From positions 248,001-312,000 of the forward strand of contig NW_026570289.1 in assembly GCF_019649055.1 (NCBI RefSeq): a stretch of DNA of 64,000 nt, given 5' to 3'. Source of the DNA: Paramacrobiotus metropolitanus. Taxonomy: Eukaryota > Tardigrada > Eutardigrada > Parachela > Macrobiotidae. Position 1 is the stretch's first letter. Each line of letters begins with the position of its first letter. The notes beneath the pieces are model-generated. The model did no database searches and was not told where the DNA came from. It worked only from the letters and a program-made list of their open reading frames with translations. A program made the position numbers and the translations under genes. Positions 1 through 51,970 of the stretch are shown piece by piece.

Positions 1-3000
1 TTGGTGACCTTTCTGATTGATCGGAGTTTGACCTTTCTTCGTCCGATTTTGACTTTTCCAGTTCATTTATTTCTTCGGGGCTCGTTAATGGCTTTTCGGT
101 CAACTCGACCGGCGGACATTCCTCACCGTTATCGAGTGACCTTTCCCCGTTTTTTGCCTCAGTTACTGGGTTTTGTTGTTCGTTCGATATCCTTTCAACT
201 TCCTCTTTAAACCTTTTCCACATTTCACCTCTGTCCGTTAACATTTGCGCAATATCGAAAGCCGACTTTGAACTTTCTTCTGTTTCATTCGATTGTCCTT
301 CGGCTATCTCTTTAACTGGTTCCTCTTTCTCTGCTTCTTTGACAGTCCCTTTATTGGTTTGATCCTGTTGAACTGTTTCGTAACCTTTAGGTCGTTTAGG
401 ACCAACGAAAATGCAGTTTGCCATCAGTTCTTCGGTGACCCATTCATCATTCGGAATCGTTTCATACATGCACCATGTATCGCCACCTCGTTCTGGGTAG
501 TCCACTCCATCTGGATCTGGTGCAAAGGTCACCTTTTTCTTTTGCATCAGTCCCGGTGACCTTCTTCTCCGGGTTACTTGTAATTCTCTCATGTCTTTGA
601 CATCAAATGTGGGAATTTCTCTTTCAAATTTATCCCAGTATTTCTCGAATGCTTTTTCGTTTCCCTCTTTTAACGCGTTGTAGTACACTTCAAGTGATTC
701 GTAGACAGGTGTACCAAGTCCTGCCGGGAAGATGATCGTTCTCCCTTCACCTTTATACATGTGGTTCACACGGAAGTCCCAGAAAAGATCAACTCTCGCT
801 TCTTCCCACATTTCTCCTTCCTCGGTCATTTCTTCTATCTCTCGTTCAAATCTCCTTTCTGTTGCTACCGGATCGAGAGGATCTTGGATTCCTTTCTCCA
901 CACGTTGCAACCAATGGTTCAGCCATCTGCCTCTTCCAATTATGAAACTTTCCACACATGACAACCACGTTCGATATCTATTCCAATGATACCGTTCGAT
1001 GTGTGGTTTCCACATTTCGTTTGTCCGCATGATGCTTTTCGCTTTCTTTTGGGCATGACCTTTAAGGTCTGCTAATGCGGCATTACATCTTGGCCATTCT
1101 GAAAGGTCATCTTGGGAGGCATTTTCACAACATTCCGTGCATTCCCATTGTGGTTGCACTCTGCACGGATCCTCAAAGTAACCGTGGTGACAACTCCCGG
1201 CTCGTTCTTCTGGAGTTAATGTCCTTTGACTCGCTTCAGTTTTAACCTGTTCCTGTACTGTGGTAACTTCCTCACATTCGATTGGAGTCACGCTTTTATC
1301 CTCAGAGGATATTTCAATGACCTCTGGTTCTTTTTCTGTTCGGTGACTTTTCAATTGTTCGAGTGCCTTGTCGCGGATTTCGCTTGTAAACATCTGTTCC
1401 TCTTCAACTATTCGTTTAAAAACTCGTAACCTTTCACTCTTTTTATCCTTCCCCACTTTAGCCGTCTTTATTTCCAGTGCCTCTGGTACTGGGATAGGCT
1501 TTGCCCACTCCATGTCTGGCACAAGAGATTGTTTCGCTGCAACTGCCGCTTCTTTCTGTGTGGCAATTATCTCTTCAATCATTGGTGACCTTTCAATCGT
1601 TGGTGGCCTTTGAGAGTCACGTTCTGTTACTTCCTCTTTGGCTTTATCTGGTAGCCTTTCATTTTGGGTAGCAGATCGTGGTTCGAAAAGGTTCGAATTA
1701 CGCTCTCGTTCCAAGTTCTCAGTTGCTGGTGACCTTTCGTCTTCCTTTCCCAGTGCCTCTGGTACTGGGATAACTTTTCCAACTTTTCCATTTTCATTTT
1801 TCGTTTCCAGTGCCTCTGGTACTGGGATAATTTCTTCCTGCTGCACTTTTGTCATTCCCGGTGCCTCTGGTACTGGGATGACCTTTTCTCTTCCCTTCTG
1901 TGCCAGCAAGGTCCGATTTAATGTCTTTTCGATCTCCTGCTGAATCATTTGCAACTGCTCAAATGGTGACAATTCTTTTCGCGTCATCTTTTTCTTTTCG
2001 TTTCCCGGTGCCTCTGGTACTGGGATTAGCGTTTTATTAACCATTTGAGCATTTCCCGTCTGTTTTACAAGTTCGGTGACCTTTCCGACTTGAACTTTGG
2101 CGACTGGTTTTGGGTCGTCTTCTTTCTCTTCTTCACCTTCGTTATCCATTAGTACGAATTTCTTTTCCAAGAAGTCGAATCCCAATAACACTTGTACGTC
2201 GTCACACTTCGGTCGGACGTAGAATGAATGTTCGCTAGTCTTTTTCCTTAAGGTCACTGGCGCTACACAGTAGCGCGTCACCAGGAATCCTGACGTTCCA
2301 CTAATTCCATTTATTTTCACCAATCTGTCTGGTGGCAATGGGAGCATGTGGAGTCCATTCTTCTCGCAAAACGGTTTGCTGATCAGCGACGTCTCAGCGC
2401 CGGTGTCCAACATTGCGTTGACCTTTATGTCTCCCACTTTCACTTCGTGTGTGTACGCTTCAATTCTCTTGGGCAATTTTCCGTTTTGAATCTTCAGTGT
2501 ATGAATCTTACATTTCACAGGAATGAGCGATACTGGTCCCGGATCCATATCGGAAAGCACTTGTCCTTTTGCTGGAGTGCTATGACCTTTCAGTACCTCG
2601 CTCAGCTTATCAATCCTATGTGGAACGTTAGTCCGAACATCGTAATATTTTCGAGTCTCTTTCTTGTCTATTTGCTTCTCAGGAATCTTTTTACTGCTGG
2701 TGACCTTTTCGGCATTTTGCACTTGCTCGTTTGCTTTTGTGCCAGCTGTGTGACCTTTTGTCATTTCGTTTATCGTCTGATGAATCAGTTCCTCTTTACG
2801 GTTTTCATTTCGCTTATCTCTCAGCTTCTCAATGACTTCACTTGTTATTTGGTCAGCTCGCTTCAATTCGTCTTCTTCACCATCTCTCATCTCCTCTGGT
2901 GACCTTTCATATGTGACCATATTATATCCCTTTTCGGTCATCCATTCGATCACTTTCGCGGACACTTCATTGTTCGTTTTCGTCGGATCGATTTGTGAAG

Positions 3001-3517
3001 ACATTCCGTCTGTTCGGGCTGGTGACTTGTCATTGGCATCCTTTTGCAGTGCCTCCGATAAGTCCCGTGACCTTTCAACTGCGCTACTCTGTTGCGTTTG
3101 CGCTATCTCATTTGACCGTCCTTTTTGTTCATTTTGCGCTAAGTCCTGTGACCTTTCGTTGCGCTTCATGACAAATCCGCCACCTGTCAGCTTTTGTATG
3201 GGGACTTTTTCTCCATAATTCGGCGGTTTATCCTGTGGTGGAGCATTACGTGAATGATTCCAGTCAGCGAATGTCTTCTTATATTCCTCTGGATTGAATA
3301 CTGGGACTGGGTTCGATGACCTTTGCGCTGGTTTCCCGGTAACCAACTCTTCCAGTCGCTTTCTTTCACATTGCGTTCGCAACTGTTGCATGTCCCAGTA
3401 GTCCTCTTGTGACATTCTCGCTTTCTGCTTTGCTTTCGGCGTCACAGGTATCCACATCCCGTGATTGCCATTCGGTCTGTAGGCCACTTTTTTGCCACTT
3501 CTCCTTCTGTTGTAATG
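1..3517 (-). CDS. Retrotransposon Pol N-terminal part with aspartic protease (partial, runs off left edge)
   Basis: One reading frame stays open on the minus strand from just after a TAA at 3518-3520 to the window edge, about 1170 codons. About 350-400 codons in there is a retropepsin-type aspartic protease: the catalytic motif MLDTGAETSLIS (DTG at 2399-2407) is followed about 65 residues later by the flap/third-segment motif LLGFDFLEK near 2165-2190. Upstream is a charged, low-complexity region; downstream are more than 650 residues I do not recognise, including a Cys/His-rich patch (CHH...CTECC) near 1110-1200. No RT, RNase H or integrase motif is reached, so those should lie left of the window. 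The frame is +1 relative to Gag and separated from it by the TAA. Expression therefore needs splicing, internal initiation or recoding. The long open frame suggests a young copy. Confidence 0.8.
1474..2030 (-). repeat. Five copies of a 22-bp coding repeat (IPVPEA)
   Basis: Near-identical copies lie at about 1474, 1750, 1804, 1855 and 2004 within the Pol frame downstream of the protease. Each encodes IPVPEA(P/L) and contains an imperfect CCAGT...ACTGG inverted repeat. Spacing is irregular, so this is a dispersed motif, not a simple tandem array. Confidence 0.85.
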
Positions 3518-4208
3518 TTACTGCGTCCACAAGTGAGTCGTCGGAGTTCTGTGCCGTTTCATTATTCTTTGCTGCGCTGTTCGCAGTGTCAAGTCTGTTT
3601 CTTGACCTTTTAACACGACGCTATCGCCGTGACCTTTGGCGTTCACACCTGCTCCGTGACCTTTCGCTTGAACTTTTCCAACAGACGGTGACCTTTCATC
3701 TTTACTAATGACGGTGATATTCTGCTTAATCCATTCTTGCCTTATTCGCTTCTCTTCTTCGTCTTCTGAACGATTCCAAAACTTTGGCTTTGGCTCCCCG
3801 TAACAATCGCAACTTGGCTCATTCGCGCTTTTATCGTTTTCCGCAATTTTGCTGCCACACTTCTGCTCAGGTACCATTCTGCGGTGACCTTTGGTCCCGT
3901 TGGTGCGTTTCCACTCGCAGTGCCATTCTGCGGTGACCTTTGATTCTGCGACGGTGTCCTTATAACCGTTCCATTTCCTTTTTGCGCTGACGGCATCCAT
4001 ATAGCCGTTTCTCTTTGCTGTGGCGGCATCCATCTAGCCGTTTCTTGTGGTTGCGGCATCCATATAGCCGGTCCGTTTTGCTTTTTCGCTGACGGCATCC
4101 ATATAGCCGTTGCAGTGGTCACGTTCACTGCAGTACCATTCTGCAGTGGTGACCTTTCCCTTTTATCCGGTGGTTTAGGGTCGGGTCGATCAGTAGGCTC
4201 ACCGGTGC
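3518..4208 (-). other. Gag-Pol junction region with overlapping open frames and short repeats
   Basis: Between the Gag stop at 4209 and the Pol frame lie two overlapping open stretches on the minus strand: 3742-4128 and 3518-4033, in the two non-Gag frames. The second is in the Pol frame but ends at the TAA 3518-3520; a TAG at 4034-4036 closes it upstream. Four copies of a GGCATCCAT(A/C)TAGCCG-type repeat lie at about 3990-4110, encoding AIWMPS-like peptides in one frame. Several AAAGGTCAC nonamers (3603-3690, 3883, 3932) produce KGH, KVT and ERS peptides. Whether either frame is translated is unknown. It could be a linker read by frameshifting or an intron. Confidence 0.5.
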
Positions 4209-7200
4209 CTACTGATCTTGCCCGTTTCCCTGAACCGGCGCCCCACCTTGTTGTGCGCCCTGCACATTTCCTTGCGCTTGCTCGTTCACTGGGCCACCTC
4301 CGTTTGGCTGGCCACCACCCTGTTGGTAGTTTCCGCCTCCATTTCCACCGCCTCTGTAATTTCCGCGGCCATAGCCTCTGTTTCTTCCTCTGAAGCCGCC
4401 GCGGCCGAAGCCACCACGGCCGAAGCCGCCATTCTGGCCACCACCATTTCCGTTTCCATAGTTACCGTTACCTTGCTGATTCTGAAAGTTCGCTTTCGCC
4501 TGGTACCATTGCGTGATCAGGTCATATCCATTTGCGACCGCTTGGCGCCAACCACCGAGCCCGCGCAGTCGTTGCCACTCGTTGAAGGCAAACAGGTTTG
4601 GGTTCTGTTCCGGTGGTGTGTGGGCGAATTTGCATCCCTGGGTCTGGTGGTTGCCATACATACAGTACTGGCACATCTGAACGTTGTTCGCCACCCATCC
4701 GTCAATCATTTGGAACTTGAATTCGGTTCGTGACCCTTGATTTTGCTGATTATTGTTCTGGTTTCCTCTGTTTGGCTGAAAGTTGCCTTGCCTTTGACCT
4801 TGATTCTGAAAGTTTCCTTGGCCTCCATTCCAGTTTCCATTTCCATATCCATTTCCACCGAAATTTCCATTACCCCCACCTTGTTGTGGTAACCCGACAT
4901 TCACAGGAGCCATTATCTGTGGTGCCGGTGGAGCCGCATTCTGGGGTGCCGGTCTCACTTGAGTAGCTGCCTGTATCGCCGCCACCATCGCATATGTTAT
5001 TGGTTGTCCCGTCTGACTGTCGATAAAAGTCACCTTTTCGGTGACCTCTCTGACCGGAGTCTCCACGCGGTATTCAACCGGCTGCTGGACTGGCGCAGCT
5101 GCCATTCTCTGTTGCGGCACGTTTTCAACTTGGCCTTGGCGGATGGTCACGTATTCCTGATTACGTTGACCTTTTGGTGCCTTGTATTTTTCTTCGCCCG
5201 TTGCCCAATGTCGGAAGAAGTCCTTCACATCCGTTGGCGTCTTGCACTTCTGTATGCGCAGGGCTTTGTAGAGTTCGTTGTCCCCTCTACATCCTTCAAT
5301 CAGGAAACCCACTGCTTGTTTCTCTGTGATGATCCGCTTTGCTTTGAATCGCATCATCGCCTGATAATACTGGTCCAGCGATTCTTTTCCGAGTTCAAAT
5401 TTCCTTGCATAGGCCTCACGTAAGCCTAAGACTTCTTCATCTCGATCACCATATTCGTCCTTGAATTTGTCCATCCACTCTGTTATTGAGTATTCAATTC
5501 TATCTTCGGCTGCGATGTCCTTTTCTCCTTCAAACCATGTTTTTGCAGGACCTTTCACTGCACTGGCTATCTCAATCATGATTTGGTCGTCCGTCAACTG
5601 ATAAGTCCTTTGGGTTTCTTTCACCAATCGTGTCCACCCACTCACTGTGTCACGACTGCCGTCAAAGGTCATGAGTGGTGTTTTCCGGGCCATCGAGTTG
5701 AGTGCTTTTGTCAATTGCACCGCTGTGTCAATTTCTGCCCTCTGGTCATCGTCTTCTTCGCTACTTGCATCATCACTTTGATTTCGTTTCGCTTTTCCAT
5801 AACGGGATTTCCTTGGACGCTCCTGCCGGCTGGGGGGTCTGTCCCGTCGTCCTTCATCAATGAACACATTTGTCTCCATGTGCGGGGGAAATTGTGAAGG
5901 GTCACCTCGACTCATATGCGGGTAACTTTCCGATGGTGGCTCTTTGTCATCTTTGGCCTTTTCCCCGTCCTTTTCGTTTTTGACACTTCCTCTGCCAGTA
6001 CCAGTTCGTAGCGGCATGTCGAAGTGGAAGCTTTTACCCGTGCCCGTTTCATGCGCCTTGCTGTAACTGGGCGGGGGGGACTCCACTGTTGCCGTTTTAA
6101 CTCCATATTGTAGGAGTTGTTCATCTTTGTGCTTGTTAGACGTCTGGAGCGCCTTGTTCTCATCTTCCAATCGTTTAGTTCTCAGTTGAAGTTCTTCTCT
6201 TTCTCTCTTTAGATCAGAATTTTCCAGGTTGACCTTTCGTAAGTGTTCCTGCAGTTTAAAAGACTCCTGCTGGGTGACCTTTTCATTTTCCTGTTCCATC
6301 TTTTTGATGTGCTCGACCAGCTCACTCGTTTCATTTTCGAGTTGCTGATACTGCCCAGCGGCTGATCTCAGCTGATCCTTGATTGCGATCAACTCATCAT
6401 CTTTTGCCAATGCTGTGGTGGTCATCTCGACGAGGTCAGTGTTCAGCTTTGCAATCTCCTGACTCTTTTGAGCGACCTGTTGTTGCCACTCTTTGTCCTT
6501 CAGCTCCAATGTTGTGACCATTGTGTCCAGTCGCCGTGCTTCCTTCTGCCATTTGAGTCCTTCCTTAGTGACCTTTTCAATGTCTTCTGTGACCTTTTCA
6601 TTCTCCTGGTTGACCTTTTTGATTTCTTCTTTCAGGCGTTCTCCTTCAGTAGCTGTGATGTCTCTTGCCTCTCGCATCGCTTTGATTGCATCATTGCGCA
6701 ACTTCTCAGCTTCGTCCGCCCGTTCCTGATGACCTTTCGATTCTAGTTGCAGAGTGCTGACAGCCTCCTCCCGTAGCTTCAGGTCATTCCTTAGTTTGAA
6801 CGTCTCCGTTGCCAATGTCGTTAACCGTTGTGTGACCTCTGCGAATTTGGTCGCGTATTCGTCCCGTTTAGTTTCAGCTTCAGTGACCTTTTGTCGTAAC
6901 TGGTCACACTCGTCCTTCAATTCGGCTAAGTGTCGTGACCTTTCAGCTGATTCTTCTGACATACTTTCATTAAGGTCACTGACTGCAAGATGACCTTCCA
7001 TTTCTCTGTCATCTACCATTTTCAGATACTCCTCGGCCAGTTCCCTTTGCTTTTCATATTTCACCTTCCATTCTTCTGCTGTATTCTCCAAGTATCCCCG
7101 TTGTTGTTCCAACTCAAATAGCCGGGTCTCAAGCGATGTCAGTCTCTCTTGATATTCCTGTTTTCGTCTCGCCGTCTGATCTTCCTTATTGTGGAGTTCA

Positions 7201-7952
7201 TCTTCCAAATCCTTCACGCGCCTCTTCAGAGTTGACGTGGGACTATTCGGTGACGGCGGTCGTACGTTGATGACCTTTCCCGTTTGTGTCCTTTCAATAA
7301 GGTGCTCGGGTATGTCCTTAAACGGTGTCATCCCTTCAGCACGATCAGCTTCTTTCATCGCGGTCTGGAAGGACATATTCATCGTCGCTTCGTCATCCGT
7401 AAAGTAAGACTCATTCGATTCGTCTGAGACCATCGGAGTTGCCCAAAGGTCATCACCAACAGTCTTATCGTGCAGTGAAAGGTCATCCAATCCCAGTTCA
7501 GCCAATTCCATTTCTGTGACCTTTGTCTTATCCATTTCCATTCGAGTCAGGTTCACGTTTTTATCCTGCTCGTTTGTTCCGCTAATGGTAGCATCCAGCT
7601 GTGATGCTCCAACTGGTTCCACTCCTTTCCCTGTGGGCATTTCCTCCCCGGTGACCTTTTTCTGGTTCATCGGATGACTTCCCGCCGCAGATGCGGGAGT
7701 ATCCTTTCCGTCACCGCTGGAGCTCTCCTCATTCTGTGTAGCTCCAAGCGCCACTTGGTATGTGCTATCACTGCCTTTGCTGTCTTTTCTTGCAAAGGTC
7801 ACAGCCGCTCGGGTCTGTCTATCATGTCCGACTGGACGCGCGAGCGACTTGTATTCCTTCTTATATGGATCAACTGCGCTTTGTTGTGATCCTCGGGAGC
7901 TCCTGCTTCCCTGACTGCTGGTAGATGTCGGTTCCTCTTGTTCTTTGTCCAT
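4209..7952 (-). CDS. gag: Retrotransposon Gag polyprotein (1247 aa)
   Basis: A full-length frame with ATG in good context (ATCAACATGG) downstream of a TATA promoter. In order it has: an acidic, Ser/Thr-rich N-terminal region; a long coiled coil of about 400 residues (near 240-640); a retrotransposon-gag/capsid-like domain at about 790-960 (GPAKTWFEGE ... ITEWMDKFKDEYG ... LDQYYQAMMRFK), which resembles Gypsy/Metaviridae Gag; a single CCHC zinc knuckle CQYCMYGNHQTQGCKFAH (C-x2-C-x4-H-x4-C); and a Gly/Asn/Arg-rich RGG tail. It should assemble the particle and bind the element RNA. It is longer than typical Gypsy Gag because of the coiled coil. Codons spelling KVT, KGH and ERS recur because the same DNA nonamer is embedded throughout. 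No internal stop is present, so the copy may be recently active. Confidence 0.85.
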   Translation of the reverse strand: MDKEQEEPTSTSSQGSRSSRGSQQSAVDPYKKEYKSLARPVGHDRQTRAAVTFARKDSKGSDSTYQVALGATQNEESSSGDGKDTPASAAGSHPMNQKKVTGEEMPTGKGVEPVGASQLDATISGTNEQDKNVNLTRMEMDKTKVTEMELAELGLDDLSLHDKTVGDDLWATPMVSDESNESYFTDDEATMNMSFQTAMKEADRAEGMTPFKDIPEHLIERTQTGKVINVRPPSPNSPTSTLKRRVKDLEDELHNKEDQTARRKQEYQERLTSLETRLFELEQQRGYLENTAEEWKVKYEKQRELAEEYLKMVDDREMEGHLAVSDLNESMSEESAERSRHLAELKDECDQLRQKVTEAETKRDEYATKFAEVTQRLTTLATETFKLRNDLKLREEAVSTLQLESKGHQERADEAEKLRNDAIKAMREARDITATEGERLKEEIKKVNQENEKVTEDIEKVTKEGLKWQKEARRLDTMVTTLELKDKEWQQQVAQKSQEIAKLNTDLVEMTTTALAKDDELIAIKDQLRSAAGQYQQLENETSELVEHIKKMEQENEKVTQQESFKLQEHLRKVNLENSDLKREREELQLRTKRLEDENKALQTSNKHKDEQLLQYGVKTATVESPPPSYSKAHETGTGKSFHFDMPLRTGTGRGSVKNEKDGEKAKDDKEPPSESYPHMSRGDPSQFPPHMETNVFIDEGRRDRPPSRQERPRKSRYGKAKRNQSDDASSEEDDDQRAEIDTAVQLTKALNSMARKTPLMTFDGSRDTVSGWTRLVKETQRTYQLTDDQIMIEIASAVKGPAKTWFEGEKDIAAEDRIEYSITEWMDKFKDEYGDRDEEVLGLREAYARKFELGKESLDQYYQAMMRFKAKRIITEKQAVGFLIEGCRGDNELYKALRIQKCKTPTDVKDFFRHWATGEEKYKAPKGQRNQEYVTIRQGQVENVPQQRMAAAPVQQPVEYRVETPVREVTEKVTFIDSQTGQPITYAMVAAIQAATQVRPAPQNAAPPAPQIMAPVNVGLPQQGGGNGNFGGNGYGNGNWNGGQGNFQNQGQRQGNFQPNRGNQNNNQQNQGSRTEFKFQMIDGWVANNVQMCQYCMYGNHQTQGCKFAHTPPEQNPNLFAFNEWQRLRGLGGWRQAVANGYDLITQWYQAKANFQNQQGNGNYGNGNGGGQNGGFGRGGFGRGGFRGRNRGYGRGNYRGGGNGGGNYQQGGGQPNGGGPVNEQAQGNVQGAQQGGAPVQGNGQDQ

Positions 7953-8690
7953 GTTGATCGGATAACTTGGACGCTCCTGTCAATTGTTCTCACACACACG
8001 TTATTGTATGGTTTATTCGATTTTCCTAAAGGTCACTTTGTACCTCCGAAATTTTTCTAAGTCTTTATTAAAGGTCACTTTTCGACTGAAAAATTTCGAC
8101 CAAGTCCCGTTTAAAGGTCACTTTTTCGGTAAAAAGTTCGAGAGGTTTGCCCTAAAAGGTCACTTTCGGACAAAACTTCGAGACCGTTTTTTACAGTTTG
8201 AAACACGTTAGCAAATGAAATCCTACAGCTGCTGATATCGCTGTACCACTATTCAGTTCAATTTCGCTTCAATAAAGGTCACCGTTCGTCAATTCCGGAT
8301 CTTAAAGGTCACTCGAAAGGTCATTTTGATCAATTAGAACTTTTCGGTAAAGGTCACTTTCCGATGTCAAAGGTCAACTTCTGATCTCAAAGGTCACTTT
8401 CCTGCTCGTCTCAACTCAAAAGGTTACTTCTCAACTCGATTCAAGTTAAAAAGTAACTTTCCAGCTCAATTTTAATCAAAGGTCACTTTCCTTTGTCTCA
8501 ACTCAAAAGGTCACTTCTCAACTCAATTCAAGTTAAAAGGTCACTTTCCCGCTCAATTATCTCATCTCAAATCAAATTTCCCATTACGACTCGAGTTCAA
8601 CGGAAAATCCCCATTCGGGTTGTTTACTTCATTCCTATTGGTCAGCTAGCGCAAATCATTCAGTTCAAATTTCAACCAATCACAGCTCAG
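7953..8690 (-). other. Retroelement 5' leader / probable LTR R-U5 with reversed nonamer array
   Basis: This stretch lies between the predicted transcription start (about 8690) and the Gag ATG. About 13 copies of AAAGGTCAC lie on the plus strand between 8030 and 8545, so they are GTGACCTTT in the element's RNA, opposite to the dominant orientation in gag and pol. Sense-strand AATAAA occurs near 8015 and 8055, which would suit an LTR R region, but I could not place LTR ends, a primer binding site or a target duplication. The plus-strand ORFs here are shadows. Confidence 0.55.
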
Positions 8691-8720
8691 ATAACTGACC
8701 AATCACGTTGCTCCTCTAAA

Positions 8721-8742
8721 AATTTATATCTGCCTGACGTCA
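8721..8742 (-). promoter_or_regulatory. Retroelement core promoter: TATA box and CRE
   Basis: On the minus strand GATATAAATT (8721-8730) is preceded by a perfect CRE palindrome TGACGTCA (8735-8742). CCAAT boxes lie upstream at 8811-8815 and 8841-8845, and further CCAAT/ATTGG boxes lie downstream at 8637-8641, 8676-8680 and 8699-8703. The TATA spacing predicts a start near 8690. CREB/ATF-type factors bind TGACGTCA and NF-Y binds CCAAT in animals; that these act here is inference. Confidence 0.6.
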
Positions 8743-8845
8743 CGGTCAACGGCCAGACATGCGCGCCGTGTGCAAAACTCCGCCTATTTTTACGCTCAGC
8801 TCAGAACGGACCAATAAAAATTGACAATTTTACCGTCTAACCAAT

Positions 8846-9102
8846 CTCGTAATTAATAACGGTTTTCTACCTGTTAACCGTCCGTTCCACGGGAAAGTGA
8901 TCCAGATGATCCAATTCTTCTCCACCGTCCGTTCCCGCGCTGCCGCTTTTCCGTAGCGGTTGTGCCGCCCGCTTTTTATATGCTACTGTGCCGGCTGACT
9001 GCCGTAGCAACAGTAGTGGTGCTCTACTCCAGTTTGGAGCAGTCTGATCTGGTCTTTTCCGTGCGCCCCTTTTGGCGCTTCGCCGCTTGTGGCCCACGGC
9101 TT
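8846..9102. other. GC-rich upstream region of the retroelement promoter
   Basis: This is probably U3 or flank of the LTR. Beyond the CCAAT boxes I see no gene or clear motif. Confidence 0.3.
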
Positions 9103-9245
9103 AGGCTTCGCTGAAGCCTTGCCGAGTACCAGTGACACCAGTGTAGGTCTTCGCTGAAGACTCTACACCGAGGAACACTGGCGACTGCTCTCTTGCACTC
9201 TTGCACAGCTAAGGAAACAGCACGGTTCTTCGCTGAAGATACCGT
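9103..9245. repeat. Three hairpins sharing the apex TTCGCTGAA
   Basis: CTTCGCTGAAG recurs at 9103-9119, about 9140-9167 and about 9220-9243. Each copy is closed by a different but self-complementary lower stem: AGG/CCT; GTGTAG/CTACAC with one bulged base; and ACGGT/ACCGT with one bulge. The constant apex with variable, complementary stems suggests a structural element. Similar apex sequences with weaker stems occur near 13088 and 18148. Confidence 0.6.
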
Positions 9246-10762
9246 ACCGAAAACCAAAGCTGGAAATCCGCGTCCGTTGGAGGAAATTGCACCGCTTGTG
9301 GTGTGCGCTTTGCTGTCACACAGACCTGCGCCTTGCTGGTCGCGGGTAACACGTCAAATAACAGGCCAATTTTGCCTGACACAATTCAAATCAGATCAGA
9401 TCAATTCAATCAGAGAACCGCTGTCGGCTCTGCTACCATCTAATGCTAGATCCAACTGTGATCCAGATACGGAGACCTAAACGGAATAGATCCCGTGGAG
9501 TGAGCTATGCGATAAGTATAGCGAACTACGCGGAATCGCGAAACGTCGCACCGCTAATAGCTGACTTTTAATAATATTGACAAATCTGCTCAACAGAAAA
9601 TCAACAATGATCGGCGCAGCTCGATCGTAAAGCGTGGAGCCCATTCAACAGCGTGCAACGCTGTGCAGCACGTGCTATGCCGCGCCCACTAACAAAACAC
9701 AAGCCAATCAGAAGCGAGACACAACACAGGCCATAATCCAAAGGCGTAGCGCCTAGCGCCACTGACGTGAACGCTAGTGATCCCGGTCTCACAACAGGAA
9801 CCCCCTCATAACAAATGATCACAGTATAATAAGTCACTGAAAGATTACATGTCATAATAAATCCAAAGTAATCTGTGTAACTTGAAACTGTCATATTGTC
9901 CATGACCAACACAGTAGTGAATGCAAAATTCACAGCGCCGTCAGGTTTTTAATCTCTTATTACACGCGCGCACCCGTTATTAATAGCGGGAAATAGTTTT
10001 ATGTTTTTCCCTTATTCATAACGGAGAGTTGCAGGTACGTGCTCAGCAGCCGTGTCGTGGATCCTAGCGGGCTGTTCAGAATTGGCAAATTTGCACACTA
10101 AACCCTTACACGCCATTCAAACGATTAAAGCACAGGTCAGCTTGACGGATCCGTGGTCTCAATGCTGAATCCGGTTGGAAGGTTAAAGAAGAATACTGCC
10201 GGCGAAGAGAGAGGTCAGTCCATCTTTATAACCGGATTTCTCCGTAGCAAAATCGTTCTCCCTATTGCTGTGCGCCAGTATTATATGGAGAGACGTATTC
10301 TCAAGCTTGCTGGTAGTGTTTGTGCTCCACTGCAAACGTGCAGCTGTTCATTCTGAAGTTACAACATTGTACCAAAACGACACTGTCCCAATTGGCATCT
10401 AGTTTCAGTAAGCATTCATGTGCAACTGTACCTAATTCAAAATAACTATCTTCCTTATGTCTGACAACACTTTGGGGAATCTTACTGCTGCTCCTGGATT
10501 GCCCTTAACGAACGGTATCTACAATTGTTTGGTAGGTGCAGTCTTTGCATAACGCAAAATTATTTATCCTTTGTCAGTAGTTCTCTTAAAAGCATTTTCA
10601 GAGATTGGCTGTAAACGCATTCGATAGCAGCCTTTTTTGATTTAATAAACCTATTTTAATTTATGACAAGATACTTTCTTGACCGTCCGGTTCAAAGTGC
10701 TTTCCTGCACGGCCTTTTTTTCCGTCATGAATAATGTACTCCACTTGTTTTCGAAGCCATAT
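9246..10762. other. Intergenic region, no supported gene
   Basis: The minus-strand ORF of 110 codons at 9601-9933 has no recognisable domain. The left LTR boundary of the retroelement may lie here but I could not find it. Confidence 0.4.
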
Positions 10763-29092: not shown

Positions 29093-29869
29093 TTGAAAGA
29101 TCGCGCTTCGCGAATCGCGCCGTTAATTGCCCCAGTCCTAACGCAGATGGTGAATCGGTCGCTAGACGACGGAGTTTTTCCTTCCGTCTTTAAAAAAGCG
29201 GAAGTTTTCCCATTACCTAAAAGCAGTTCCCCGCAGTGTGTTGACGATTTTCGCCTGATTTCGCTGCTCTGTAATTTCTCGAAAGCTTTCGAGAAATGTA
29301 TACAACTGCAACTAGTGCGCTTTCTGAAAGATCACAACATCCTATCCCCGAATCAGTCTGGATTCCGAGACGGCCATTCCTGTGAAACTCTTTTACTAAA
29401 AACAACGGAAAAGTGGAAAAAGACACTGGACAGTAGCAATGTGACGGCATTGTGTTTTTTAGATCTCAAGAAAGCATTCGACAGTGTAAGCCATTCACGG
29501 TTGTTAGAAAAGATGAAGCGAATAGGAGCCGGGGTTATCGTAGTGGAGTGGCTGCACAGTTACCTCACCGGAAGAGTACAGCGGGTGCGAGATGGTCAAC
29601 GAGTGTCTGACTGGCTACCGCTAACATCTGGTGTACCACAAGGGACTGTGCTAGGACCGATTCTTTTCACCATATACATTAATGACGTGCTGATGTTGGG
29701 AGCAGGCGATTGCGATGTCGACTGCTTTGCAGATGACACGATCGCTCATGCGACTGGACGAACGAAAAGCATTGCGGCCGCAAAATTGAACAGTGGACTA
29801 GTGCGCGTCGGCCGAGCACTGGAAGAAAATTTGTTGCAAGTAAACCCAAAGAAATGCCAAGCGATGTGA
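29093..29869 (+). pseudogene. LINE reverse transcriptase domain
   Basis: RT motifs are clear: DDFRLISLLCNFSKAFEK, GFRDGHSCETLLL, FLDLKKAFDSVSH (motif A), TSGVPQGTVLGPILF (motif B) and CFADDTIAHA (motif C, FADD). It lacks its first residues (see the 290-bp insertion) and stops after KKCQAM. The C-terminal region continues in another frame at 29890-30559 (VRYLGVEINNHLK, WSAASSTERDKL). Confidence 0.9.
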
Positions 29870-51099: not shown

Positions 51100-51970
51100 C
51101 CCGTTAGTTCAGCGAGTGACCGAAATACCCCTATAGTCTAGGTGACTGAGCTCGTTAGGCTAATAAGTGACCGTACTGTTACTATAGCTCATTAGGTGAG
51201 CGGATGACCGAGCTGTCACTGCTCTCCAGCGTAAAGCCCGTTAGGGAACCGGCGACCGAATTAACCCAAATTTCTCGGCTTCAAAGAGCTCGTCAAGGAA
51301 CGAGCGACTGAGCAGTCACTACTGTTCGTGCACAGAGCCCGTTAGGTGAACGGGTAACTGCGCTTACCTCCACTGTCCAGTGCACAAAGCCCGTTAGGGA
51401 ACCAGTGACCAAGCTGATGTTAGGGCCGTCAGTGACCGAACTACCAAGTGCCACTATAGTCCCTTGAAAGAGTCAAACGATACGAATAAAAGCTATTACA
51501 ACGGAGCATCCGAATAGACCGGCCGCATCCGAATAGACCGACCGTTAACTGAGACCAAGCGCGTCAGCGAGCGGGTAACCTCGCCCATTATTGAGCGGGT
51601 GACAGAGCCCGTTAGGCGAGCGGGTAACCTCGCCCATTACTGAGCGCGTGACATGGCCCGTTAGGTGATCGGGTGACCGAGGCCGTTAGTTAGCGGGTGA
51701 AAACGTCCGTGAGTTGAGCGGGTGACTGAGCCCGTTAGGTGAGCGGGTAAAAGAGCCCGTTAGATGAGACAGACCCCGTTAGTTAGCGGGTGACAGAGCC
51801 CGTTATTGAGCGGCTCACAGAGCCCGTTAGTGAGCGTGATTGCGCTACCACTACTGTCCGGTGCTCTGAGACCTTTAGGTGAACGAGTGACTATGCGACC
51901 ACTGTCGTCCAGTGCACAGAGTCCGTTAGGTGATCAGGTAATCGAGTTACCACTTCTGACCGCACATAAG
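51100..51970. repeat. Degenerate minisatellite built on GAGCCCGTTAG
   Basis: Dozens of imperfect units combining CCCGTTAG(G/T)TGAGCGGGTGA with spacers. A 24-bp rhythm is clearest at 51580-51840, with longer mixed units at both sides. No coding sense. Confidence 0.85.

Follow-up and report, generated by a model that had tools for sequence, protein, structure and literature searches.

The question raised by this locus is why one short word recurs, in every reading frame, throughout the body of a retrotransposon, and whether it is the nucleic acid or the encoded protein that is constrained. The window analysed here is the whole 64,000-nucleotide (nt) stretch of Paramacrobiotus metropolitanus DNA, C69:248001-312000 (C69 being contig NW_026570289.1), taken from a source genome of 169.8 Mb in 533 contigs. 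Its beginning is occupied by part of a minus-strand Ty3/gypsy long terminal repeat (LTR) retrotransposon, in the leader and open reading frames (ORFs) of which the word AAAGGTCA, usually followed by C, is found dozens of times. The data presented below argue that this word is, in all likelihood, a site in duplex DNA that is under selection, the binder being a protein of the host or of the element. The recurrence had been reported in an earlier reading made from the letters of the DNA (the sequence-only reading); that observation was confirmed, and the interpretation attached to it is partly supported.

Occurrence of the word and comparison with chance

On the sense (minus) strand of window positions 1-7952, 38 copies of AAGGTCA and 23 of AAAGGTCAC were found, in all three frames. 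The phenomenon is larger than had been described, and it is not confined to positions 1..8545, the extent first assigned to it: the element reaches C69:238038, outside the window, and the motif continues through the ORF for reverse transcriptase (RT), RNase H and integrase (the RT-IN ORF), through later frames and through the stretch preceding the 3′ LTR. The internal pieces of the element (19,046 nt) contain 88 copies of AAAGGTCA, in which the next base is C in 52, T in 23, A in 13 and G in none. The proposed nonamer does recur (52 copies of AAAGGTCAC, versus 2 of CAAGGTCAC), but it is not fixed, the word being AAAGGTCA plus C, T or A.

For comparison with chance, codons for the same amino acid were permuted within each ORF, which keeps both the protein and the codon usage, in 2000 shuffles. 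AAGGTCA was observed 14 times in gag (shuffle mean 2.94), 17 times in the protease ORF (2.14) and 12 times in the RT-IN ORF (1.55), and in none of the three was the observed value reached by any of the 2000 shuffles. Over the three ORFs the totals are 43 against 6.64 for AAGGTCA (6.5-fold) and 23 against 1.93 for AAAGGTCAC (11.9-fold). The sequence-only reading had put the expected number of AAGGTCA at about 0.5, which was too low, yet the 6.5-fold excess remains. The complement, TGACCTT, was found 11 times in the three ORFs against a shuffle mean of 1.00, the observed values being reached in 0, 2 and 2 of 2000 shuffles; eight of these reverse copies lie in the two ORFs of the window, again above the shuffles. 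Among 7-mers seen at least five times, the four that most exceeded the shuffles were all parts of the motif or of its complement.

The peptides that the word encodes are also in excess. KVT occurs 16 times against 1.2 in residue shuffles, ERS 11 times against 1.3, and KGH 4 times against 0.4, the last count being reached by some shuffles. The motif encodes 13 of the 16 KVT, all 11 ERS and all 4 KGH. Because these peptides are in excess and are mostly or only written by the motif, it seems that the word in the nucleic acid has moulded the protein.

Very little departure from the word is seen. When the sense strand was scanned over window 1-7952 and over piece L009, which carries the RT-IN ORF, 34 perfect nonamers were found and no one-mismatch word more than twice, except for those with T (10 copies) or A (9 copies) at base 9. 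None of the 35 sense sites in the three ORFs has G at base 9, whatever the codon position; other CAs in these ORFs are followed by G in 44%, 15% and 36% of cases at codon positions 1, 2 and 3, respectively. In the leader and 3′ sites there are 22 AGGTCA, none with G at base 9. A base-9 rule that disregards the frame is the pattern that a nucleic-acid-binding protein would impose.

Identity and architecture of the element

The element is a Ty3/gypsy (Metaviridae) LTR retrotransposon. Its RT-IN ORF has Pfam matches in the order RVT_1, RT_RNaseH, Integrase_H2C2 and rve, and the closest PDB match of this ORF is Ty3 Gag-Pol (7q5b). The protease ORF matches Asp_protease_2, gag-asp_proteas and RVP. 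The element measures 19,756 bp from LTR to LTR and has CTGT on both flanks, read by eye as a short target-site duplication. The two LTRs, of 355 bp each, are 100% identical, which suggests a recent insertion. Its features are listed below, in window coordinates except where another sequence is named.

9439..9793, minus strand: 5′ LTR, 355 bp, with no copy of the motif
8600..9438, minus strand: upper leader, starting with TGGTAGCAGAGC, which by eye resembles a primer-binding site; no AAAGGTCA in either orientation
8028..8544, minus strand: leader motif array; on the sense strand 13 TGACCTT (11 of them GTGACCTTT) and no AAGGTCA
4209..7952, minus strand: gag-like ORF of 1247 amino acids (aa); 14 sense AAGGTCA and 5 reverse TGACCTT
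3488..4208, minus strand: gag-pol junction; 7 sense AAGGTCA and none reversed; all frames interrupted in the window copy
2..3487, minus strand: protease-bearing ORF, which continues past the window edge; 17 sense AAGGTCA and 3 reversed
L009:3335-7201, outside the window: RT-RNase H-H2C2-integrase (RT-IN) ORF, identified by Pfam and PDB matches
C69:238038-238392 (L029:4038-4392), minus strand, outside the window: 3′ LTR, identical to the 5′ LTR

A Pfam search with the 1247-aa gag-like ORF gave no matches; a C-X2-C-X4-H-X4-C knuckle was seen in it by eye. The pol region is split over several overlapping frames in the window copy, and in other copies the RT-containing frame reaches up to 3,124 aa. 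The gag-pol junction is probably coding in most other copies, since one frame is free of stops in 14 of 19 of them. The junction also contains, at window 3983-4070, a 33-bp repeat in 2.8 tandem copies. In the protease ORF (window 2-3487), the peptide IPVPEA(P/L) is repeated several times, and ATCCCAGTACCA is present five times, as are 12-mers that overlap it.

Conservation of the word among copies of the family

A gag search yielded 179 first-look candidates, of which 40 were scored, and the more similar 19 of the 39 other scored copies (L010-L028) were aligned with the window copy. The motif is present in these copies, and it is conserved. Third codon positions match the window more often within motifs than outside them, both in gag piece 1 (0.929 versus 0.686) and in piece 2 (0.973 versus 0.744). 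The same is true of motif columns versus others in the junction (0.992 versus 0.903) and in the leader (0.945 versus 0.862). In gag, synonymous codons within motifs were kept in 97.3% of cases, versus 79.0% for amino-acid-matched codons (36 codons, each with at least five usable rows; 19 copies). Motif heptamers in gag were perfectly kept in 85% of rows, versus 50% for other heptamers (19 versus 3,557 heptamers; Mann-Whitney P 1.8e-7, with neighbouring words not independent, and with words that cross gaps or have fewer than eight usable rows dropped). Some gag sites are polymorphic (for example, 10, 12 and 6 of 20 rows), the variants being mostly substitutions, some of them several together. 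These results suggest that selection seems to maintain the word itself rather than the protein that it encodes.

Orientation of the sites and the leader array

Over the 20 copies, sense and reversed AAAGGTCA number 0 and 236, respectively, in the leader array, 0 and 0 in the upper leader, 162 and 0 in the junction, and 100 and 49, 68 and 19, and 18 and 18 in the three pieces of gag. In the upper leader of the 19 other copies (aligned parts of 519-833 nt), no AAAGGTCA was found in either orientation. In the final 1.6 kb before the 3′ LTR of the window copy there are 7 reversed and 2 sense AAGGTCA. The sequence-only reading had rightly placed the motif in the leader, but the 11 nonamers and 13 heptamers there are opposite in orientation to most of the coding copies. 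Within the ORFs, the ratio of sense to reversed copies (43:11) is below the 6.6:1 set by codon composition (shuffle means 6.64:1.00), so there is no sense preference that needs explanation. Since the leader is wholly reversed, recognition as single-stranded RNA is hard to reconcile with the data, and recognition of duplex DNA is compatible with them; the opposite orientation of the leader and 3′ copies argues against a single-stranded RNA motif and in favour of a DNA-binding protein.

The earlier proposal that constraint acts on the nucleic acid and not on the peptide is borne out by the frames and orientations of the sites, their presence in the non-coding leader and 3′ end, the synonymous conservation in gag and the exclusion of G from base 9. 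A cause at the level of the peptide was rejected, given the use of three frames, the presence of copies in the leader and ahead of the 3′ LTR, and the base-9 rule in all frames.

Taken over the 20 copies, sites in the leader array are most often spaced 28-30 or 41-43 nt apart, and TRF detected arrays at 8349-8558 in the leader. The leader array does look as though it was partly built by tandem duplication. A spacing analysis of the array for helical phasing gave no clear period.

Sister and related families

An RT search yielded 1,763 first-look candidates, of which 99 were scored. In a sister family 88% identical in amino acids (one copy, read in part), third positions are 48% identical. Its junction (551 nt) contains 6 sense and no reversed sites, although the longest BLAST match to the window junction is 36 nt; three of the six sites align on window sites and three lie elsewhere. 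Its leader (401 nt) contains 5 reversed and no sense sites, and 18 sense AAAGGTCAA were counted by eye in approximately 16 kb surrounding that copy. In L009, the two longest stretches without the motif both fall in the RT region, and there appears to be a trade-off between constraint on the protein and constraint on the motif.

On contig C1, L062 and L075 represent a related pol family with 74-75% DNA identity, in which one site of the window family is kept. Twenty C1 sites were chosen by eye, apart from clusters; 16 were without a match among the sequences compared, and two matched each other only. A search for relatives in viral contigs found none.

Occurrence of the word in the genome

Genome counts were made on both strands, with the word read backwards as the control and with the element lineage and all other sequence pooled. 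AAAGGTCAC occurs 19,414 times versus 3,461 for its control (5.6-fold, or approximately 16,000 extra copies), the T form AAAGGTCAT 10,618 versus 3,478 times (3.1-fold), the A form 8,487 versus 6,156 times (1.4-fold) and the G form 4,042 versus 2,427 times (1.7-fold), a tandem array supplying part of the last. That array, at C1:2537724-2538368, is satellite-like, carries AAAGGTCAG eight times at intervals of 90-91 bp and inflates the G-form count. It is apparent that the C and T forms are prominent genome-wide, as they are in the element, and that the exclusion of G from base 9 does not hold for the genome as a whole. CAAGGTCAC showed no excess in the genome (1,895 versus 1,871, 1.0-fold).

Pairs of AAAGGTCAC no more than 30 nt apart number 982, versus 10 for the control. 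One paired form occurs at 36 sites, 18 of which make up 9 inverted pairs 2.7-7.9 kb apart; some pairs are thus outside the lineage of the element. In the one pair that was read, C1:2685960-2686160 (L082) and C1:2688776-2688976 (L083), terminal-repeat-like sequence with two tandem motif copies (GTGACCTTTAGGTCGCCACGTGACCTTT) was seen, suggesting that the paired form with GTGACCTTTAGGTCGCCACGTGACCTTT is a DNA transposon bearing the same word in its ends. A motif-built, palindrome-like stretch, GCACCAAAGGTCACATATATATAAATGTGACCTTTGGTGC, lies in L077 (C1:758852-759152) and is perhaps a small foldback element.

Nuclear receptors as candidate binders

Three roles had been proposed for the motif: transcription factor sites, an RNA-binding motif and a self-spreading micro-repeat. 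The first of these fits best: AAAGGTCA is identical, as an 8-mer, to the NBRE, the site of NR4A monomers (PMC4777543). The second fits poorly, and so does the third as far as the coding copies are concerned. As at NR4A/NBRE sites, the counts in the element and in the genome favour AAAGGTCA rather than CAAGGTCA. There are 63 zf-C4 matches in the host genome, and for one zinc-finger exon, L045, all four of the best PDB matches are NR4A; by these matches, the host possesses an NR4A-like zinc-finger exon. In the nuclear-receptor loci of the host (L030-L059; 88,431 nt after removal of two overlapping loci), AAAGGTCA ranks first among 840 8-mers of the same composition, with 21 copies, against 11 for the runner-up and a mean of 3.0. 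The NBRE match, the NR4A-like exon and the enrichment at receptor loci are leads, not proof, and other factors may share the word.

Two other candidates were rejected. FTZ-F1/SF-1/ERR-type sites, which we take to be TCAAGGTCA, were ruled out by the lack of a genome excess of CAAGGTCAC. AAAGGTCAG resembles a splice donor site, and a splice-donor cause was rejected because of the complete absence of AAAGGTCAG from the internal pieces.

Comparison with known systems

The closest comparisons are with three systems. The insulator of Drosophila gypsy consists of 12 degenerate Su(Hw) sites over approximately 350 bp of the 5′ untranslated region (PMC7168160), and gypsy insulators are described as preventing transgenes from joining PIWI-interacting RNA clusters (PMC6471301). 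The present element, also of the Ty3/gypsy group, is similar in having an array of short sites between its 5′ LTR and gag, with 13 heptamers over approximately 520 bp. It differs in its word, in the near-perfect rather than degenerate copies, and in sites that extend into gag, pol and the 3′ end. In Arabidopsis, VANDAL21 carries the strict nine-base motif YAGTATTAY, with variable ends, which is bound by VANC21, and related families have different motifs (PMC5735166, PMC10398659). Here too, one strict nine-base word is repeated in a transposon, with a binder that is predicted, whereas the VANC21 motif is protein-bound. VANC sites are located within non-coding tandem repeats, and the two probes from coding regions that were used there do not contain the motif; in the present element the leader array is non-coding, but the three ORFs carry most of the sites, including 43 AAGGTCA. 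VANDAL21, moreover, is a plant DNA transposon with an element-encoded binder, unlike this retrotransposon. With the NBRE, the element shares the 8-mer and its host has an NR4A-like exon; NBREs are, however, response elements of target genes, and here 88 copies are present in one mobile element.

Among the matches listed in a search of open-licence literature (titles and the starts of abstracts), no retrotransposon with an ORF-wide motif was described.

Evaluation of the explanations

In the explanation that we favour, AAAGGTCA followed by C, T or A would be the double-stranded DNA recognition site of a sequence-specific DNA-binding protein. A Ty3/gypsy lineage would have accumulated such sites along its internal body, in the leader array, in the ORFs in all frames and in the stretch before the 3′ LTR, with the LTR and the upper leader spared and the sites elsewhere kept by selection. 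The likeliest binder would be a monomeric nuclear receptor of the host, of the NR4A/NBRE type, and its occupancy at dozens of places would sustain transcription of the provirus, or shield it from silencing, in the cells where the element replicates; Su(Hw) sites in the Drosophila gypsy leader and VANC targets in VANDAL transposons would be the working analogues. In this explanation the duplex target is inferred, as are the choice of binder and the function. The chances are about even that the motif is bound by a factor of the host, NR4A-like in the likeliest case, and that this binding promotes expression or resists silencing. A fuller picture is offered tentatively, in which the coding body would double as a distributed platform for a host nuclear receptor, with dozens of perfect NBREs in three frames of gag and pol shaping synonymous sites and the KVT, ERS and KGH peptides, and marking the whole provirus to be activated or to be protected against silencing.

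Several results weigh against this explanation. Before the removal of overlaps, 8 of 24 AAAGGTCA in the host nuclear-receptor loci were AAAGGTCAG; because G is allowed there at base 9, the factor acting at these loci may differ from the predicted binder of the element. We know of no base-9 rule for NR4A. In the genome counts, the G form is not below the A form (1.7-fold versus 1.4-fold), and in the host DNA of the window (54 kb) AAAGGTCA is not enriched (2 copies versus a mean of 2.0). The leader array is uniformly oriented, a uniformity that a DNA site would not need. The alignment drew on the more similar half of the scored copies, and in gag piece 3 third positions are barely higher within motifs (0.829 versus 0.791, n=4). 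Of four reference sites in the RT domain, the 88% family keeps two (plus one new, reversed) and a 94% family none. Finally, RT copies of 92-94% on C1 are poor in close motif pairs, as judged by eye among the first 100 places listed: none near 685439 (94%), one near 2450154 (93%) and one near 4016733 (92%). Motif density thus varies within the lineage.

In a rival explanation, the binder would be encoded by the element, for example in the downstream frames or in Gag, and would mark the element's own DNA, in VANC-like self-directed anti-silencing or a similar process. The site tolerates less variation in the element (0 of 88 with G) than in the host nuclear-receptor loci, sites are dense in both the main family and the 88% sister family, and shorter frames without any Pfam match exist downstream of RT-IN; in VANDAL21, the nine-base motif bound by VANC21 lies in non-coding parts (PMC5735166). 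This account is nevertheless unlikely: no DNA-binding domain was found at E 0.001 in those downstream frames, which are interrupted in the window copy, and AAAGGTCA is enriched in the host receptor loci too. It is improbable that the reversed leader and 3′ copies serve to pair with the coding copies, so that the genomic RNA folds, circularises or is packaged. The leader copies and 7 of the 9 heptamers in the last 1.6 kb are indeed complementary to most coding copies, as are the leader copies of the sister family to those of its junction, and T at base 9 (10 sense sites) would be tolerable as a G-U pair. However, other G-U-compatible variants occur no more than twice each against 34 perfect nonamers, A, which does not pair, occurs 9 times at base 9, leader and coding sites are not complementary beyond the core, and reverse copies are enriched within the ORFs also.

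The two remaining explanations are both very improbable. Recognition of the word as single-stranded RNA, whether by Gag or by a factor of silencing or splicing, would agree with the mainly sense orientation of the coding copies (43 versus 11), but that bias is within what composition gives. Packaging signals usually sit in the leader, and the leader array of the 20 copies contains no sense copy; the RNA-binding role suggested by the sequence-only reading fits poorly with leader and coding copies that are complementary. A functionless self-spreading micro-repeat, or a mutational bias, is suggested by the leader spacings of 28-30 and 41-43 nt and by the TRF arrays at 8349-8558, which suggest local tandem duplication there. 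It fits poorly with the coding copies, which lack shared flanks, differ at polymorphic gag sites chiefly by substitutions and have conserved synonymous sites within the motifs.

Known binding-site arrays of retrotransposons are in LTRs and leaders; here the site lies within coding sequence, across frames, and is synonymously conserved, and a nucleic-acid requirement seems to have shaped proteins. If a nuclear receptor binds the word, the activity of the element would be tied to a hormone or stress pathway, and many receptor sites would be carried to every new place of insertion. How the entire body of a long provirus is kept open becomes a directly testable question.

Other features of the window

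An RT ORF of another element lies at window 29093-29869, with no AAGGTCA inside it. A 24-bp minisatellite is present at window 51506-51836.

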